64,000 bases of DNA from NCBI GenBank assembly GCA_009885845.1, contig VFJW01000005.1:1-64000 (forward strand). Direction: 5' to 3'. This DNA comes from Geobacter sp. GTDB taxonomy: Bacteria; Desulfobacterota; Desulfuromonadia; Geobacterales; Pseudopelobacteraceae. The notes under the pieces are model-generated. The model saw only the letters and a list, made by a program, of their open reading frames with translations. It searched no databases and was not told the origin of the DNA. Shown here in pieces: positions 6,603-19,922 of this stretch (within the stretch, counting starts at the first letter, position 1; every line of letters begins with the position of its first letter). Made by a program: the position numbers and the translations under genes.

Positions 6603-7415
6603 ATGAGTATGAACAGATTGCCTGCTGAAAAAACAGCCGTACTCCGCTCAATTTTGTCTGACATGGGCGGCTGCGTGATCGGGTTTTCAGGCGGGGTTGA
6701 TTCGACCCTGCTGTTTGCCGTTGCGGCTGAAGTTTTGGGTAACCGGGCGCTGGCGGTTACTGCTACGTCGAAGACCTATCCGGAACGCGAGTTACATGAA
6801 GCACGCGAGCTGGTCGGACTAATTGGCGGCCGGCATCTGGTAATTGTTTCAGAGGAACTGGATATCCCTGAATTTCGCGATAATCCCCGCAATCGCTGTT
6901 ATTACTGCAAGAAGGAGCTGTTCGGTAAATTGAAGGTTATTGCCGATCAGGAAGGGCTTGCCTATGTGCTGGACGGCACCAATGTTGATGATGCCGGCGA
7001 TCACCGCCCCGGCCGGACGGCGGCGGCAGAGCTGCAGGTACGCAGCCCGCTGGAGGAAGCCGGCTTTACCAAGCAGGAGATCCGCGACCTTTCCCGTAAC
7101 ATGGGGTTGCCGACCTGGGACAAGCCCGCTTTTGCCTGTCTCTCCAGTCGTTTTCCCTATGGTACCGCTATTACACCCCTGCGGGTCGATCAGGTTGGTC
7201 TGGCTGAAGAATCGCTGCGGAGTCTGGGATTCCGGACGTTGCGGGTACGCTATCATGGGAGTGTGGCCAGGCTTGAGCTGGGAGAAGAGGAGTTTGAGCG
7301 GGCGACCGGAATCCTGCGGAACGAAATTGTCTCTGTGGTAAAAGCGGCCGGTTTTATCTATGTGGCACTCGATCTGCAGGGATACCGGACCGGCGCCATG
7401 AATGAAGAAAATTAG
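6603..7415 (+). CDS. larE: ATP-dependent sacrificial sulfur transferase LarE
   Basis: A 270-residue PP-loop ATP pyrophosphatase. LarE adenylates a carboxylate of the pyridinium precursor and donates sulfur while building the nickel-pincer nucleotide cofactor of lactate racemase-type enzymes. The PP-loop SGGVDST is near residue 30. The family motifs RCYYCKKELF, LDGTNVDD, HRPGRTAA and PAFACLSSRFPYG are all present; the Cys in the last is at the position of the sacrificial cysteine of the characterised Lactobacillus enzyme. GAAAGGA precedes ATG 6603. No larA, larB or larC is in the window, so its partners must be elsewhere. Confidence 0.92.
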   Translation: MSMNRLPAEKTAVLRSILSDMGGCVIGFSGGVDSTLLFAVAAEVLGNRALAVTATSKTYPERELHEARELVGLIGGRHLVIVSEELDIPEFRDNPRNRCYYCKKELFGKLKVIADQEGLAYVLDGTNVDDAGDHRPGRTAAAELQVRSPLEEAGFTKQEIRDLSRNMGLPTWDKPAFACLSSRFPYGTAITPLRVDQVGLAEESLRSLGFRTLRVRYHGSVARLELGEEEFERATGILRNEIVSVVKAAGFIYVALDLQGYRTGAMNEEN

Positions 7416-7460
7416 TATAATGCTGATCTATAGGTACTATCACTCAGGGAGGTTTTATCC

Positions 7461-7727
7461 ATGAAGAAAATTATGTTCGCAAGTCTGCTCGCTTTTGCTG
7501 CGTCTGCAGGTCCCGCCACGGCAGATGACGTAATTAAAATGAAGCGCGGCGTCGAATTCCCGCACAAGTTCCACCAGGAAACGATTAAAGACTGCACGAA
7601 GTGCCATGGAGCCGAGGCGCCGGGTAAAATTGCCGGATTCGGCCGTGACTGGGCCCACAAAAACTGCCGTGTCTGTCACACCTCAAGAAATCCGCGTACC
7701 GCGTGCCATGACTGCCATAAACTGTGA
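7461..7727 (+). CDS. Periplasmic triheme cytochrome c7-like protein
   Basis: An 88-residue protein with a Sec signal peptide (MKKIMFASLLAFAASAGPATA) and three heme c attachment motifs, CTKCH, CRVCH and CHDCH. Extra histidines (FPHKFHQ) can act as distal ligands, as in the c7/PpcA-like periplasmic electron carriers of Geobacter. A strong Shine-Dalgarno sequence (AGGGAGG) precedes the ATG. Its end overlaps the start of hrpB by 4 nt. A paralogue lies at the other end of hrpB (10310-10585). It probably shuttles electrons in the periplasm; partners are unknown. Confidence 0.88.
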   Translation: MKKIMFASLLAFAASAGPATADDVIKMKRGVEFPHKFHQETIKDCTKCHGAEAPGKIAGFGRDWAHKNCRVCHTSRNPRTACHDCHKL

Positions 7728-10309
7728 CTGATGTCGGTTCGATACGGGGTGCCGGGCATGCCGCATTGGCTTATTTGCGAGACCACGCCATAACCGGACT
7801 TCCGATCGACGACATCCTGCCCGCTCTCCTCGACTCGTTCGACTCTCACCGGAACATCATTCTGCATGCCCCGCCGGGGGCAGGCAAGACCACGCGCGTC
7901 CCGCTGGCACTTATACATTCCATTCCCCCTGAAGCCGGACGCATTATCATGCTGGAGCCGCGGCGGATTGCTGCGGTGTCCGCTGCCCGCTGGATGGCGC
8001 GCTGTCTCGGCGAAGAGGTCGGACAGACGGTTGGTTATTCCATCCGCTTTGACTCCTGCACGTCCAAAGATACACGGATTGAGGTGGTAACCGAAGGAAT
8101 TTTGACGCGACGGATTCAGAGTGATCCCGCGCTTACCGGTGTAGCACTGGTCATTTTTGACGAGTTTCATGAACGGAGCATCCATGCCGATCTCGGTCTG
8201 GCACTCTGCCGGGAGGTGCAGCAGCTGCAGCCGGAGCTTAAAATCCTTGTCATGTCGGCGACACTTGATCTTCAGCCTCTTTCCCGTCTGCTTGACAATG
8301 CTCCGGTGATCAGTTCAGAAGGGCGTTGCTTTACCGTTGAGATGAAATACCTCGATGACAAAGGGCATGCACGGGTTGCAGAGCGAGTTGCCGCGGCGGT
8401 TGCCCTGGCGCTGCGTGAAACCGGGGGGGATATCCTGGCGTTTTTGCCCGGTGCGGGCGAAATCCGCGCCTGTGCAGCACAGTTGGCTGAAGCAGGTGTC
8501 AGTACCCGGGATGTTGTGGTCTGTCAGCTGTATGGAGACCTGTCGATGGCCGAGCAGCAGAAGGCTATTCAGGCCGGGCCGCAGCGCAAGATTGTACTGG
8601 CTACCAGTATTGCCGAAACAAGCCTGACGATAGAAGGTGTCCGGACCGTTATTGATTGCGGAGTGTCCCGACGGCTGCAGTATGATCCGGGCAATGGGCT
8701 GAACCGGCTGGTTACCGTCCGTGAATCGCGGGCCTCTGCTGAGCAGCGCGCCGGCAGGGCAGGGCGGACCGCCACAGGAGTCTGCTATCGGCTCTACTCT
8801 CCCCATACGCTGAACGCGATGGCAGCACACTCACCACCCGAGATCTGCGTCACCGATCTTTCGCAGCTGGTACTGGAACTGGCGGCCTGGGGAGTTACTG
8901 ATCCGATGCAGCTCGGCTGGCTGGATGCGCCTCCTGCGACCGCGTTGGAAGCGGCCCGTCGTCTACTTGTCGAGCTTGATCTGTTTGATGCCGTCGGTCG
9001 GATCACGGCTACCGGACGTGACGTTGTGCGAATGCCGCTTCATCCCCGTCTCGGCCGCCTGCTGATCCGTTCACGGGAGCTTCGCTGTCCTGCTCTCGGG
9101 TGCCGGATTGCTGCGCTTCTTTCTGAGCGTGACCTGTTCCGGGCAGGTGCCGGCAGCAGCTTGCCGCCGGTAAGCAGTTCCGATATCGCCGATCGTCTGG
9201 AGGTTCTGAAAAGCTGGCGTTCATCAGGGCGCACTGGTTGTGGCATGGATCTTTCTGCTCTGAAAAACGTGGAACGGGTTGAACGCCAGCTGGGACGGAT
9301 TATGGACGTATCACCCCGCGACGATGACAATGCCGGTGATGATGACGCTGTTTCGCGACTGCTGCTGGTGGCGTATCCTGATCGCATCGCGCGGCGCAGG
9401 TCGTCCGGCGGCGGCTACCTGCTTGCCGGAGGGCGTGGAGCGCGCGTCTCGGAGCGCTCCGCAGTCCGGGCGGCCGAGTATCTTGTCGCGCCGGCTCTGG
9501 ATGCGGGAACCCAGGCTGAGGCTATTATCCATCTCGCCGCTGAACTACCCGAGTATGTAATCCGCGAGGAACGTTCGAGTCATATACGGCGGGAAACCAG
9601 GGTGGACTGGGATGATCGTGAGGGGCGCGTTATTGCTCAGCGACTGGAATTGCTGGGGAGTATTCAGCTTTCCGTTGAAACGGTTGTCCCGCCGGAAGCA
9701 GAGGCGGTGCCTGCGGTGATCGCTGCGGTACGGTCTTCGGGGCTAGGTCTTTTGACGATGAATGATGCGGTCAGAAGCCTGCAGGGACGCCTGCTGCTGG
9801 TGCGATCCGCATTTCCGGAGCGTGACTGGCCGGACGTTTCGGATACCGCACTGATTGCTACGCTTGAAGAGTGGCTGGCTCCTCATTTGGCCGGTGTCAC
9901 TTCAATTAAAAAAATTGCTCAGTTGAATATTTCTGAAATTATTCGTCAGAGTCTTGATTACCGGCAGCAGCGCGAACTGGATGAACTGACACCGACACAT
10001 ATCTCTGTTCCGAGCGGTTCACGGATCAAAATTGAGTATGCCGGTGACATTCCGGTGCTGGCGGTGAAACTTCAGGAATTGTTCGGTCTGGCGGTCGGAC
10101 CGACGGTGTGCGGAGGCAGAATACCTGTCTTGCTGCACCTGCTTTCGCCTGCCGGACGACCGATTCAGGTGACTCGCGATTTAAAGGGATTCTGGGATGG
10201 ATCATATCAACAGGTTAAAAAGGAACTCAAAGGTCGTTACCCTAAGCACCCCTGGCCTGACGATCCCTGGAGTGCAGTTCCGACGCGAAAGTTGAAGCCG
10301 AGAGGGTAA
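7724..10309 (+). CDS. hrpB: ATP-dependent helicase HrpB (DEAH/RHA family)
   Basis: An 861-residue DEAH-type helicase. Walker A APPGAGKTT is near residue 50. The family's DEFH box DEFHERS, motif III SATLD, and motif VI QRAGRAGRT follow in order, then the HA2-like and HrpB C-terminal domains. The length fits HrpB (about 800-860). The assigned GTG start overlaps the cytochrome stop. A start further downstream, just before GLPIDDILPALL, would match typical HrpB N-termini better, so the first 25 or so residues are uncertain. The physiological role of HrpB is poorly defined in bacteria. Confidence 0.93.
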   Translation: MTDVGSIRGAGHAALAYLRDHAITGLPIDDILPALLDSFDSHRNIILHAPPGAGKTTRVPLALIHSIPPEAGRIIMLEPRRIAAVSAARWMARCLGEEVGQTVGYSIRFDSCTSKDTRIEVVTEGILTRRIQSDPALTGVALVIFDEFHERSIHADLGLALCREVQQLQPELKILVMSATLDLQPLSRLLDNAPVISSEGRCFTVEMKYLDDKGHARVAERVAAAVALALRETGGDILAFLPGAGEIRACAAQLAEAGVSTRDVVVCQLYGDLSMAEQQKAIQAGPQRKIVLATSIAETSLTIEGVRTVIDCGVSRRLQYDPGNGLNRLVTVRESRASAEQRAGRAGRTATGVCYRLYSPHTLNAMAAHSPPEICVTDLSQLVLELAAWGVTDPMQLGWLDAPPATALEAARRLLVELDLFDAVGRITATGRDVVRMPLHPRLGRLLIRSRELRCPALGCRIAALLSERDLFRAGAGSSLPPVSSSDIADRLEVLKSWRSSGRTGCGMDLSALKNVERVERQLGRIMDVSPRDDDNAGDDDAVSRLLLVAYPDRIARRRSSGGGYLLAGGRGARVSERSAVRAAEYLVAPALDAGTQAEAIIHLAAELPEYVIREERSSHIRRETRVDWDDREGRVIAQRLELLGSIQLSVETVVPPEAEAVPAVIAAVRSSGLGLLTMNDAVRSLQGRLLLVRSAFPERDWPDVSDTALIATLEEWLAPHLAGVTSIKKIAQLNISEIIRQSLDYRQQRELDELTPTHISVPSGSRIKIEYAGDIPVLAVKLQELFGLAVGPTVCGGRIPVLLHLLSPAGRPIQVTRDLKGFWDGSYQQVKKELKGRYPKHPWPDDPWSAVPTRKLKPRG

Positions 10310-16338: not shown

Positions 16339-17133
16339 GTGTTTACAATAGTTAGTGTTACGTTGAAAGGAATCTTCCGTGATCGTGTGTTCCAAGGGAT
16401 CATGGCTTTGGCCGTCTTGTTTCTTTTTATCCCGTCAGCGGCGACCCTCTCCATGCGCCAGGTCACAGAGCTGTCCATTACTTTGTCACTTTCTCTCACC
16501 TCATTTATTCTGTTGCTGCTCTCGGTTTTTTTGGGGGCAACTTCACTCTGGAAGGACATGGAGAGGCGTTATACCTTCAGTGTACTTAGTCTACCGATCA
16601 GTCGCAGTTCTTACTTGTTGGGGCGTTTCTTTGGCCTGGCTCTTTTTCAGATATTGACATCCACGCTCCTCGGTGCTGTAGCCTGCTTGGTCATAAAAAT
16701 TTCTTCAGGGATGTATCCACCTGACCGTCCTATTGTATGGACTTGGTTGGTGTTGGCAATCGTGTTCACAACGTTAAAATACATTCTGCTGGTTGGAGTT
16801 GCTTTACTTATATCAACGCTCAGTACCTCATTTTTTCTGCCGATTTTCGGTACTATCTGCGCGTTTCTGGCTAGCGGTATAACCCAGCAGGTGTATGAAT
16901 ACGTCAAATCATCTGCTGCGGAACAGGCTATTTCTCCTTTCCTGCAATCTGCAGTTACTTTGGTCTACTACTTGCTACCCAATCTGGCTGGCTTTGATCT
17001 GAAGGTGAATGCCGTTTACAGCATCGCTCCAAATTTTGCAGGTCTAGGGTTTACCGCTGCCTATTTTGTCTCCTATACCGCAATCCTGTTAGGGGCCGCA
17101 GCACTGCTGTTTAACCGGAGGGAGATGAAGTGA
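16339..17133 (+). CDS. ABC-2 type transporter permease
   Basis: A 264-residue inner membrane protein with about six hydrophobic segments and the ABC-2/NosY-like pattern. After the first segment comes WKDMERRYTFSVLSLPISRSSYLLGRFFG, the usual cytoplasmic coupling region. I chose GTG 16339 because AGGGG is correctly spaced; an ATG at 16318 lies within the terminator T-run and is unlikely. The next gene overlaps it by 4 nt. The ATPase for this permease is probably the gene at 19008, now separated by a MITE and a toxin-antitoxin pair. It resembles the exporter downstream of pilA in Geobacter (xap region), as far as I recall. Confidence 0.8.
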   Translation: MFTIVSVTLKGIFRDRVFQGIMALAVLFLFIPSAATLSMRQVTELSITLSLSLTSFILLLLSVFLGATSLWKDMERRYTFSVLSLPISRSSYLLGRFFGLALFQILTSTLLGAVACLVIKISSGMYPPDRPIVWTWLVLAIVFTTLKYILLVGVALLISTLSTSFFLPIFGTICAFLASGITQQVYEYVKSSAAEQAISPFLQSAVTLVYYLLPNLAGFDLKVNAVYSIAPNFAGLGFTAAYFVSYTAILLGAAALLFNRREMK

Positions 17134-17996
17134 CACGAATCTCTGCTCCAGTTAGTCTGCTCATTACGGGACTACTTGCCTATTGTCTGGTGATAACACC
17201 TTTTGCAAGCTATATGAGTAATAAACCGATTGAGGAGAAGCTGGGATTTGTTCCCAGCATCAAACTGATTAAATCGCTCAGCGCTGATCAGAAAGAGCTC
17301 GTCGGGGCATCGCTGGTGATGAAGGTAATGATGTACTATGGTGGAGCGATGGGGAAGGTTTTAGACGGGCAGGTGATTGCCGAGCCGCTTGACTTGCAGG
17401 GGATGTCTCGTTTGCTTCACGGCGCTGTGCAACTTGATCCATACAATATGGACGCCTATTATTTTGCCCAAGGAATTCTTACTTGGGACGTGAAACAGTA
17501 TAAACTTGCCAACGACCTGCTTGATTACGGCATGACATATCGCACCTGGGATTGGTATCTCCCCTTTTTTGCCGGATTCAACAGCGCTTATTTTATGCAC
17601 GATTACAAGAAGGCTGCCGATTACTACAAACGGGCAGCAGATTTAAGTGGTCAGGATTTGCATATAAGACTGGCTGGCCGTTATATGCAGGAATCCGGAC
17701 AGACCGATCTGGCAATCGTTTATCTTTCTGCAATGGCAAAAGGGGAGAAAAATCCGGCCTTGAAAAAATCGTATTTGACACGCCTGGCAGCATTCAGGGA
17801 GGTGAAGCGGATTGAGTTAGCGCGTGACAAATTCCGCGAATCACGCGGTTTCATTCCCAAGTCGATTGAACAATTAACCGGTGCTGGGTTGCTTTCAACA
17901 GTTCCCGTTGATCCGTATGGCGGACGATTTTTTATCGAAGCGGATGGGAAGGTTGCCACGACCAGCAAATTTGCTTTCGGCGCGGCAAAGAATTGA
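17130..17996 (+). CDS. TPR-like membrane-anchored protein of the exporter operon
   Basis: A 288-residue protein with an N-terminal hydrophobic anchor (VSLLITGLLAYCLVITPFA) followed by a helical region with TPR-like repeats, for example YKKAADYYKRAADLSGQ and DLAIVYLSAMAKGEKNP. It ends in a segment FIPKSIEQLTGAGLLSTVPVDPYGGRFFI. That type of sequence (small helical unit with VPVDPYGG) is also seen at the C-termini of other TPR and pseudopilin-like proteins. The GTG start overlaps the upstream stop (GTGA), indicating translational coupling. It probably faces the periplasm and assists the exporter; this is inference. Confidence 0.7.
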   Translation: MTRISAPVSLLITGLLAYCLVITPFASYMSNKPIEEKLGFVPSIKLIKSLSADQKELVGASLVMKVMMYYGGAMGKVLDGQVIAEPLDLQGMSRLLHGAVQLDPYNMDAYYFAQGILTWDVKQYKLANDLLDYGMTYRTWDWYLPFFAGFNSAYFMHDYKKAADYYKRAADLSGQDLHIRLAGRYMQESGQTDLAIVYLSAMAKGEKNPALKKSYLTRLAAFREVKRIELARDKFRESRGFIPKSIEQLTGAGLLSTVPVDPYGGRFFIEADGKVATTSKFAFGAAKN

Positions 17997-18003
17997 TCGT
18001 TGT

Positions 18004-18222
18004 CAGCGTTGTCCGGTTTGGTTTATGCTTACGTCCCGTAGGGATAGAATGTAGGTAGACGGGGAATTCATTCCCCGGTCATTGCGGCAAAACATCATCA
18101 CGTCACGTACGTGACGTGGGTAAAAATGGCATCTCATCCGGGGGATAAATCCCCCGGCTACAGTCGGACGCCCCTAACGGGGCTTAAAATCCTGAGTGCA
18201 AAGACCAAACCGGACACTGCTG
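18004..18222. mobile_element. MITE-like non-coding element with 9-bp target duplication
   Basis: A 219-bp element with 19-bp terminal inverted repeats. CAGCGTTGTCCGGTTTGGT on the left matches the reverse complement of the right end (CAGCAGTGTCCGGTTTGGT) at 17 of 19 positions. It is flanked by a perfect 9-bp direct repeat, GATCGTTGT (17995-18003 and 18223-18231), the expected target duplication. Inside are several hairpins: GGGGAAT/ATTCCCC, a self-complementary ACGTCACGTACGTGACGT, CCGGGGGATaaATCCCCCGG and GCCCCtaacGGGGC. No reading frame of useful length is present. It would need a transposase supplied elsewhere. Confidence 0.8.
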
Positions 18223-18325
18223 GATCGTTGTAATTGATTTAATTCGATCGTAGTTGTCATTTGATATTATATGTATTACTATTGCAAAAAAGTATTACAA
18301 TATCTAATGGGTAGGAGATGTTGTC

Positions 18326-18574
18326 ATGATTTCTACTGTAACCACCAAGGGACAGATAACAATACCGGCCACTATCAGATCCTACTTCCACATCAAACCA
18401 AACGACAAGATAGATTTCATCATTGACAACGAGCGCATCATTGTTATTCCGATTAAAACTCTTAAAGAACTTCGGGGTTCTGTCACGGCTACTGGACACG
18501 TTGCCGATTTTGCGAGCGAACGGCAATTGGCGAAAGATGTTATGGCAAAGAGGATATCCGAGGAGTTTGTATGA
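18326..18574 (+). CDS. AbrB/MazE-type antitoxin (VapB-like)
   Basis: An 82-residue protein starting MISTVTTKGQITIPATIRSY, the classic swapped-hairpin AbrB DNA-binding fold (V(T/S).KGQ(I/V)(T/V)(I/L)P..IR). The variable C-terminal half would wrap and inhibit the toxin. GTAGGAG precedes ATG. It overlaps the PIN toxin gene by 4 nt (ATGA), the usual antitoxin-first coupling. The operon is probably autoregulated. Confidence 0.9.
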   Translation: MISTVTTKGQITIPATIRSYFHIKPNDKIDFIIDNERIIVIPIKTLKELRGSVTATGHVADFASERQLAKDVMAKRISEEFV

Positions 18575-18981
18575 ATAAATGTTTTGTGGATACAAACCTC
18601 TTTATTCGATATCTGACCAACGATGATCCGTTGTTGGCAGACAAGGTGGAAAAACTTTTGGACGAAGCTTCGTCCGGCGTTGTGGCTTTGGTCACCACGG
18701 AACTGGTGATTGCTGAAATTATATGGGTTCTGGAGTCATCATATAGTCTGACTCATGTGCAGATTGCGCCATTGATAAGAGGCATTCTTGCAACATCAGG
18801 GCTCGAAACTATAAACGGGGAAATTGTCGGTCGTGCCCTTGTGTTGTACGAACTAAAAAACATAGATTTTGTTGATTCGTATATTGTGGCATTAATGGAA
18901 AAGCAAGGAATTAAAGATATCTACTCATACGATCGGAAACATCTTTCAAGAGTTACAAGCATCAATAGAAAAGAACCGTGA
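18571..18981 (+). CDS. PIN-domain ribonuclease toxin (VapC-like)
   Basis: A 136-residue PIN domain protein. Acidic active-site residues can be seen in FVDTNLFIRYL (Asp near the N-terminus), TTELVIAEIIWVL (Glu) and IDFVDSYIVALM (Asp), and the protein ends with a helix and basic tail. VapC-type toxins are Mg-dependent endoribonucleases that cut tRNA or rRNA. It is coupled to the AbrB-type antitoxin upstream. The module sits between the permease/TPR pair and the ATPase of the same exporter, next to a MITE. Confidence 0.9.
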   Translation: MNKCFVDTNLFIRYLTNDDPLLADKVEKLLDEASSGVVALVTTELVIAEIIWVLESSYSLTHVQIAPLIRGILATSGLETINGEIVGRALVLYELKNIDFVDSYIVALMEKQGIKDIYSYDRKHLSRVTSINRKEP

Positions 18982-19007: not shown

Positions 19008-19922
19008 ATGAACGCCATTGAGATAACGGGGCTGTGTAAACAGTTTACCGGAAAGCGAATGACAAAGGTCGATGCCCTGAAGGGTCTTGACCTCACTATT
19101 GCCGCAGGTGAAATATTCGGCTTTCTCGGACCGAATGGCGCCGGAAAGAGCACTACCATCAAACTGGTTATGGGTCTGTTACGGCCTACCTCCGGCACAG
19201 CAAAAATTATGGGGATGGATGTCGGTCAGGCCGAATCGCGTCGCAACGTCGGCTATCTTCCGGAAAATCCGGCCTTCTACGATTATTTGAGCGCTGAGGA
19301 GTACGTTGCTTTTGTCGGATCTCAATTCAGGATGGAAAAGGCTCTGCTGGCTCGTCGTTCGGAGGAGGTGCTGACGCGGCTGGATCTGTGGGAGGCCCGC
19401 AAACGCCCTATGCGCGGCTACAGCAAGGGGATGGTGCAGCGGGTCGGCCTCGCACAGGCACTGATTCATGATCCCGATGTTTATATTCTGGATGAACCGA
19501 TGAGTGGTCTGGACCCGATTGGCCGGGCACTGGTAAAGGAGATCATTCTTGATCTTAAGAAACGGGGCAAGTGCGTCTTTTTCAGTACCCATATCACCGA
19601 CGACGTTGAAAAAGTTTGTGATCGTGTGGGGATTATTGCCAACGGGGTGCTGAAATCAGTTCATGCGGTTGATGAACTGCTACAGCATGGAATTGAAGGG
19701 TATTATGTTCAGGTCGCCAACTGTCCAGATGATCTTATCTGTGAGTATGCTAAGCAAGGTAATAACTCAATGCCAGTTGACCAGATATTTGTATCTCGAC
19801 AGCAGTATCAGGAGTGCATGGAAAAACTTTTTGCGGTTGGAAGCTCGGTCGTCTTTATAGAGCCTAAACGAAAAAATCTTGAAGCTTTTTTTCTGGATGT
19901 TGTAGCCAATAATAAACTATGA
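19008..19922 (+). CDS. ABC transporter ATP-binding protein (exporter, XapD-like)
   Basis: A 304-residue ABC ATPase. Walker A is GPNGAGKSTT, the Q-loop region follows, the signature is YSKGMVQRVGLAQAL (a variant of LSGGQ), Walker B is VYILDEPMSGLDP, and the switch His is in FFSTHI. The C-terminal ~90 residues are not part of the core fold. It belongs to the CcmA/NatA type that pairs with ABC-2 permeases such as the one at 16339. A second, decayed copy of its first ~130 bases occurs at 50237. It overlaps the next gene by 4 nt. In Geobacter the equivalent ATPase near pilA has been linked to an extracellular anchoring polysaccharide (xap). Confidence 0.88.
   Translation: MNAIEITGLCKQFTGKRMTKVDALKGLDLTIAAGEIFGFLGPNGAGKSTTIKLVMGLLRPTSGTAKIMGMDVGQAESRRNVGYLPENPAFYDYLSAEEYVAFVGSQFRMEKALLARRSEEVLTRLDLWEARKRPMRGYSKGMVQRVGLAQALIHDPDVYILDEPMSGLDPIGRALVKEIILDLKKRGKCVFFSTHITDDVEKVCDRVGIIANGVLKSVHAVDELLQHGIEGYYVQVANCPDDLICEYAKQGNNSMPVDQIFVSRQQYQECMEKLFAVGSSVVFIEPKRKNLEAFFLDVVANNKL

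Follow-up and report, generated by a model that had tools for sequence, protein, structure and literature searches.

The window analysed here is a 64,000-nucleotide stretch of a Geobacter sp. draft genome. It contains an exporter operon in which a short, strongly folding segment without coding capacity follows one of the host genes. The question raised by this locus is what kind of element the segment is, and where its ends and its hairpins come from.

The element in the exporter operon

A first-pass annotation of this DNA had described a 219-bp non-coding element with an exact 9-bp duplication, and direct reading of the sequence bears this out. GATCGTTGT is found at 17995-18003 and again, unchanged, at 18223-18231, and the 219 bp between the two copies (18004-18222) hold no open reading frame of 80 aa or more. 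For any single element, identical 9-mers at its two ends would arise by chance with a probability of about 4e-6. The 9-mer recurs in part, as GATCGTAGT, at 18246-18254, probably by chance. Immediately inside the duplications are terminal inverted repeats of IS4 type, the left being CAGCGTTGTCCGGTTTGGTTTATGC (18004-18028, + strand) and the right, as read on the - strand, CAGCAGTGTCCGGTTTGGTCTTTGC (18198-18222). These repeats had correctly been called imperfect, but the 19 bp assigned to them was too short. They extend over 25 nt with 21 of 25 positions identical (84% complementary), a value matched by none of 20,000 shuffles.

The host gene upstream of the element (17130-17996, + strand), previously called the TPR gene, has no Pfam match. 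Its TGA stop (17994-17996) overlaps the left duplication and was preserved after insertion. The element was said to separate this gene from the ABC transporter ATPase gene (19008-19922, + strand). It does lie between them, but not alone, as a gene pair for a MazE/AbrB-like antitoxin and a PIN toxin (18326-18981, + strand) stands between the element and the ATPase. This pair, overlooked in the earlier annotation, is host context outside the element.

In most relatives the orthologues of the permease, the TPR gene and the ATPase are consecutive and the element is absent, with 13-56 bp between the last two genes where this spacing was measured. Since most relatives have TPR-ATPase junctions without the element, it did not belong to the ancestral operon. 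Conservation of the region together with its flanks, which had been named as grounds for rejecting a mobile element, is not seen, the TPR and ATPase genes abutting in most relatives. A look for empty sites in related strains had also been proposed; junctions lacking the element were found, whereas the precise empty site AATTGATCGTTGTAATTG was not found in the relatives compared. The element-less junctions do not count as base-precise empty sites since the toxin-antitoxin pair, too, is found in the window's genome only. At this locus the element probably adds little beyond an untranslated, structured stretch downstream of the TPR gene, and a regulatory role in the exporter operon is possible.

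The TPR-ATPase junction was also found to carry differing toxin-antitoxin modules, namely MazE/PIN in the window, RHH/PemK at L213, YefM/YoeB at L214 and L222, and FitA-like antitoxins with PIN-like partner ORFs (without a Pfam match) at L215 and L224. At these toxin-antitoxin-bearing loci of relatives the ATPase is 83-94% identical to that of the window, against 50-74% where the genes abut. As far as sequence comparison goes, this suggests that a segment made up of the toxin-antitoxin genes and the ATPase has been exchanged repeatedly at one site.

IS4-type ends, further copies and autonomous partners

The window's genome is a 3.27-Mb draft in 179 contigs. Besides the window copy it contains six half-copies, all of them broken off where a contig ends. 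When the half-copies were paired by their nine flanking bases, two pairs agreed exactly (ACTTTTTAT; TGTTAAAAT) and one at seven of nine positions (AGTTTCAAT/AGTTTCTAC). The genome thus holds at least four copies, the window copy and the three re-joined ones, so that the further copies of the terminal repeat proposed as a check number at least three. Matches to the element were obtained in 20 of the 58 genomes searched (its own included), and 27 of the 39 genomes from the same genus contain the terminal pattern, for which a reversed-pattern control gave zero matches. Relatives that carry the body include Geobacter argillaceus and metagenome-assembled genomes of Geobacter, Geobacteraceae and Desulfuromonadaceae. 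A search of plasmids with the element DNA gave no match.

From the window's genome and its relatives, 20 distinct bounded elements were collected, each lying between two such ends. The identity between their two flanks is 0.92 at a length of nine bases, with ten exact duplications, and only 0.22-0.33 at lengths of 5-8 and 10-12, which sets the target-site duplication at 9 bp. At least three unrelated palindromic bodies are enclosed by the same ends among these elements. At L085-L088, L117-L119 and L135-L139 the IS4 ends enclose different palindromic bodies in which CCCCTCCC/GGGAGGGG blocks are frequent; these MITEs measure about 96-230 bp, and one genome (G012) has as many as about 17 of the ends in either orientation. 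A different repeated end was observed at four contig ends of the window's genome (L044, L048, L049 and L053), with TTGTCCGGTTTTGT preceding a second copy, TTGTCCGCTTTTGG; it looks like an IS21-type multi-site terminus.

A full-length transposase element with the same termini had also been suggested as a check, and two were found, with duplications of their own, in other species of the genus (L100 and L242). One is 1,331 bp long, is flanked by a 9-bp duplication of AGATAATCT and encodes a 392-aa transposase, which matches the NCBIfam IS4 family NF033592 at 219.8 bits (5e-65, cut-off 115) and Pfam DDE_Tnp_1 at 5.7e-23. The other is 1,326 bp long, 76% identical to the first, and has ACAATTAGC duplicated. 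The 179 contigs of the window's own draft hold no transposase with these exact ends, only an IS4 relative about 25-30% identical. The partners may have been lost in the draft assembly, or the copies may now be immobile.

On the sequence of its ends, the window element is assigned to an IS4-end family with 9-bp duplications. It has the features of a bacterial MITE, being short and non-coding, with terminal inverted repeats, a duplication of fixed length, several copies and an autonomous partner. The MITE reading of the first-pass annotation gains support from the further copies, from the partner with the same ends and from the flanks without the element in relatives. By analogy with the enzymology of the family, an IS4-family DDE transposase would act in trans on the 25-nt ends, and the same enzyme would make the 9-bp staggered target cut that leads to insertion of the window element.

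The hairpin body and its link to a Y1 transposase

The strong hairpins that had been noted are real: the RNA fold of the element is -103.7 kcal/mol (z -8.6 against shuffled sequence), and the DNA fold has a z of -7.3. The body is symmetrical, in the order H1, GTAG, H2, central palindrome H3, H4, CTAC, H5. H1 (GTCCCGTAGGGAT, 18033-18045, + strand) and the GTAG tag with H2 (GTAGACGGGGAATTCATTCCCCGG, 18055-18078, + strand) make up the left, inverted half of a doublet, and H3 (CGTCACGTACGTGACG) occupies 18101-18116. The right half (18138-18184, + strand) consists of H4 (CCGGGGGATAAATCCCCCGG), CTAC, a spacer and H5 (GCCCCTAACGGGGC). A GTAG tag beside a palindrome in an inverted doublet, as is found in REP and REPIN sequences, is present at 18055-18078 and at 18138-18161. 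The body, about 160 bp long, is a double hairpin with GTAG/CTAC tags that is present twice as an inverted doublet, and it probably does not derive from the IS with these ends. Its origin by internal deletion of an IS4 element was considered and rejected, no common interior being seen.

Pairing in the hairpins has been maintained through sequence change. Covariation was counted in helices H1-H4 of 27 aligned copies, and H5 was omitted because differences in loop length misalign it. Standard pairs fill 98.3% of cells, compared with 93.5 in shuffled alignments. Changes on both sides that keep the pairing account for 27 cells against 8.1 in shuffles, a count that 0 of 500 shuffles reached; in H1 such double changes include CG to GC in 10/27. 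A one-sided change to a G-U type pair was found in only 3 cells.

The right half of the doublet was found to match the Rfam family RF01687 (Acido-Lenti-1) over model positions 1-46, with a score of 33.2 bits and an E-value of 6.7e-6. This score is below the gathering score of 37, whereas homologous copies in relatives reach 37.4-39.9 bits and lie above it. The left half (H1 and H2) is Acido-Lenti-1-like on the - strand, where relatives give weak matches; cmscan reported nothing for this half in the window.

The same hairpin set also occurs without IS4-type ends, in tandem arrays and in another MITE of 195 bp. One array, at L148 (G002:C153), has about four hairpin cassettes of 160-170 bp each and no IS4 ends. 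The second MITE family is about 195 bp long, has ends TTCTACTTTGTCA and wraps a GTAG double-hairpin cassette of the same type; its apparent 4-bp duplications are TTAA, TTAG, GTAG and ATAG (L142, L145, L146, L147, L151, L246 and L253). At L012 in the window's genome (C71, about 6614-7815), an ORF that looks Uma2-like by eye lies between an IS4-type end and, 1.2 kb away, the degraded right end of an Acido-Lenti-1 repeat. This is possibly a decayed cargo-bearing element.

Intersecting the positions of GTAG hairpins with those of Y1_Tnp genes revealed a Y1 gene between such hairpins in five same-genus genomes (G003, G008, G017, G028 and G029). At all five loci a hairpin pair flanks the gene on one side or on both, with cmscan matches at four of them. 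The encoded protein is 150 aa long and scores 79.7 bits against the NCBIfam IS200/IS605 model (cut-off 55). It is not a RAYT (25.7 bits against a cut-off of 80), and it matches the solved IS608 TnpA at 5e-15. Its motifs DDHIH, AWQ and YIEDQREHH agree with those of TnpA Y1 subclass 1.2 (DH[IV]H, WQ, Y---Q--HH, about 148 aa). The hairpin repeat therefore flanks Y1 genes of the subclass-1.2 type in relatives.

The 179-contig draft of the window's genome has no Y1 gene of subclass 1.2, and such a gene, too, may have dropped out during assembly. Its seven Y1 genes were considered as drivers and rejected, since all are of other types and none is flanked by the repeat. Several Y1-positive loci, such as L327, L329 and L286, have no recognisable hairpin pair in the stretch examined. 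In viral contigs no relative of the Y1 protein was confirmed; against plasmids and phages it matched mostly distant IS200 members, with one informative Bacteroidota plasmid.

Further evidence came from a survey of 395 Desulfobacterota genomes. RF01687 was detected in 17 of them, the Y1 subclass in 13 and both in 9, where 0.6 would be expected (Fisher p 3e-11, which overstates independence as the genomes are related). Several families are represented among the nine, and in seven of these genomes the RF01687 motif adjoins the Y1 gene, as it also does on a plasmid of Persicobacter (Bacteroidota). A descriptor independent of the Rfam model (hairpin, CTA/CTG, spacer, hairpin), which was checked on shuffles and also matches the right half of the window's doublet, was found at 13 of 21 subclass-type Y1 loci, compared with at most 0.02 per locus in shuffles. 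It was found at none of the seven other-type Y1 loci of the window's own genome, which were scanned whole, and its background is two sites in 151 kb.

Origin of the element and relation to known systems

Taken together, the shared ends with their 9-bp duplications, the hairpins that flank Y1 genes and the co-occurrence make it highly probable that the window holds an IS4-type MITE which has as its body the REP-like repeat of another transposition system, the Y1 one, with Acido-Lenti-1 most likely a DNA repeat. It is also likely, to judge from the genomes compared, that Acido-Lenti-1 is the recognition repeat of TnpA Y1 subclass 1.2. This would be a REPtron-like system present across Desulfobacterota and in one or more Bacteroidota. 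On at least two occasions, unrelated DDE-type transposons would have taken up its repeat as a MITE body, one being of IS4 type with 9-bp duplications and the other of a different type with duplications of 4 bp. As in the IS200/IS605 and RAYT/REP systems, the Y1 enzyme would recognise the hairpins as single-stranded DNA, bind them and mobilise the repeat. The repeat may have entered the MITE through a Y1 insertion that hit an older MITE, or else through recombination. The former is plausible because REP doublets inside palindromes have been published (PMC3733652).

The body could instead be a structured non-coding RNA of the Acido-Lenti-1 family that was captured and acts in trans, or as a processing or attenuation signal of the operon, which would suit the very stable fold and the position of the element inside an apparent operon. 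Rfam catalogues RF01687 as an sRNA, and it was rated a probable RNA when described (Weinberg 2010, PMC2864571). We nonetheless regard this reading as unlikely. The copies stand in either orientation, upstream as well as downstream of Y1 genes, their palindromes read nearly the same on either strand, and, like REPs, the repeat is found scattered and in tandem arrays. Moreover, the changes in the helices, which are nearly all Watson-Crick, fit DNA hairpins better, though not decisively. Acido-Lenti-1 is thus probably a DNA repeat and not an independent sRNA.

Two other histories would do without a composite. The element might be a deleted IS4-family element whose hairpins are palindromic filler, the likeness to Y1-linked repeats and Acido-Lenti-1 being meaningless; the same ends do enclose at least two other unrelated bodies, which points to a transposase indifferent to the interior. 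This account is disfavoured and decidedly improbable: the same hairpins occur around Y1 genes, in arrays and in the second MITE with its 4-bp duplications, all outside IS4 ends, RF01687 accompanies the Y1 gene in several families of the related genomes surveyed, and the body has no resemblance to the interior of the IS with these ends. Alternatively, the Y1 transposase might have placed the whole unit, with the IS4-like ends incidental, since several genomes carry the body on its own. Target duplications do not arise when Y1 enzymes transpose single strands, yet exact 9-bp duplications lie directly outside the IS4-type ends, here and with different bodies, and such placement is hardly credible.

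The preferred reading, an IS4-type MITE around a Y1-linked repeat, gives a catalogued RNA family a concrete identity, as the putative hairpin substrate of a named, orphan transposase subclass. It implies that structure-based annotation of non-coding RNAs can pick up DNA hairpins of transposons, and that non-autonomous elements can be modular, the ends of one transposition system being placed around the repeat of another. The first-pass annotation had overlooked the link of the body to the Y1 system and to Acido-Lenti-1. MITEs in Geobacter relatives and REP/Y1 systems are already known; what is new, at the level of sequence, is the link of Acido-Lenti-1 to a transposase together with the double hairpins that flank subclass 1.2 genes. 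No paper making the former link was found in the literature searched.

Among known systems, IS4-family insertion sequences (NF033592) share their termini and 9-bp duplications with the window element, which differs from them in having no transposase and an unrelated interior. The Chunjie MITE of Geobacter uraniireducens (Chen et al. 2008) is described in a review as non-coding, 178-235 bp long, with conserved ends and direct repeats, and one copy lies inside an operon (PMC10969869). On that description it resembles the window element as a non-coding MITE of a Geobacter relative with conserved ends; the account of Chunjie in that review does not mention a Y1/Acido-Lenti-1 body. With Acido-Lenti-1 itself (PMC2864571) the right half of the window's doublet shares sequence and both hairpins over the full length. 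Little is known about its function according to a 2026 paper (PMC13298647), and in contrast to a catalogued sRNA it behaves here as a dispersed, transposase-linked DNA repeat. TnpA Y1 subclass 1.2 has been described with about 150 aa and no terminal secondary structures listed (Quentin et al. 2018, PMC6006769); the genes found here have the same motifs but are flanked by the Acido-Lenti-1 double hairpin. Finally, the element has much in common with REP, BIME and REPIN sequences and with the REPtrons of RAYT genes (PMC3733652, PMC3116915, PMC6006769), namely palindromes with a GTAG tag, inverted doublets whose spacer is structured, copies both scattered and in tandem, and a flanking Y1 transposase gene. 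It departs from them in that the linked Y1 protein is IS200/IS605-like and not a RAYT, and in that each half of the doublet is a double hairpin.
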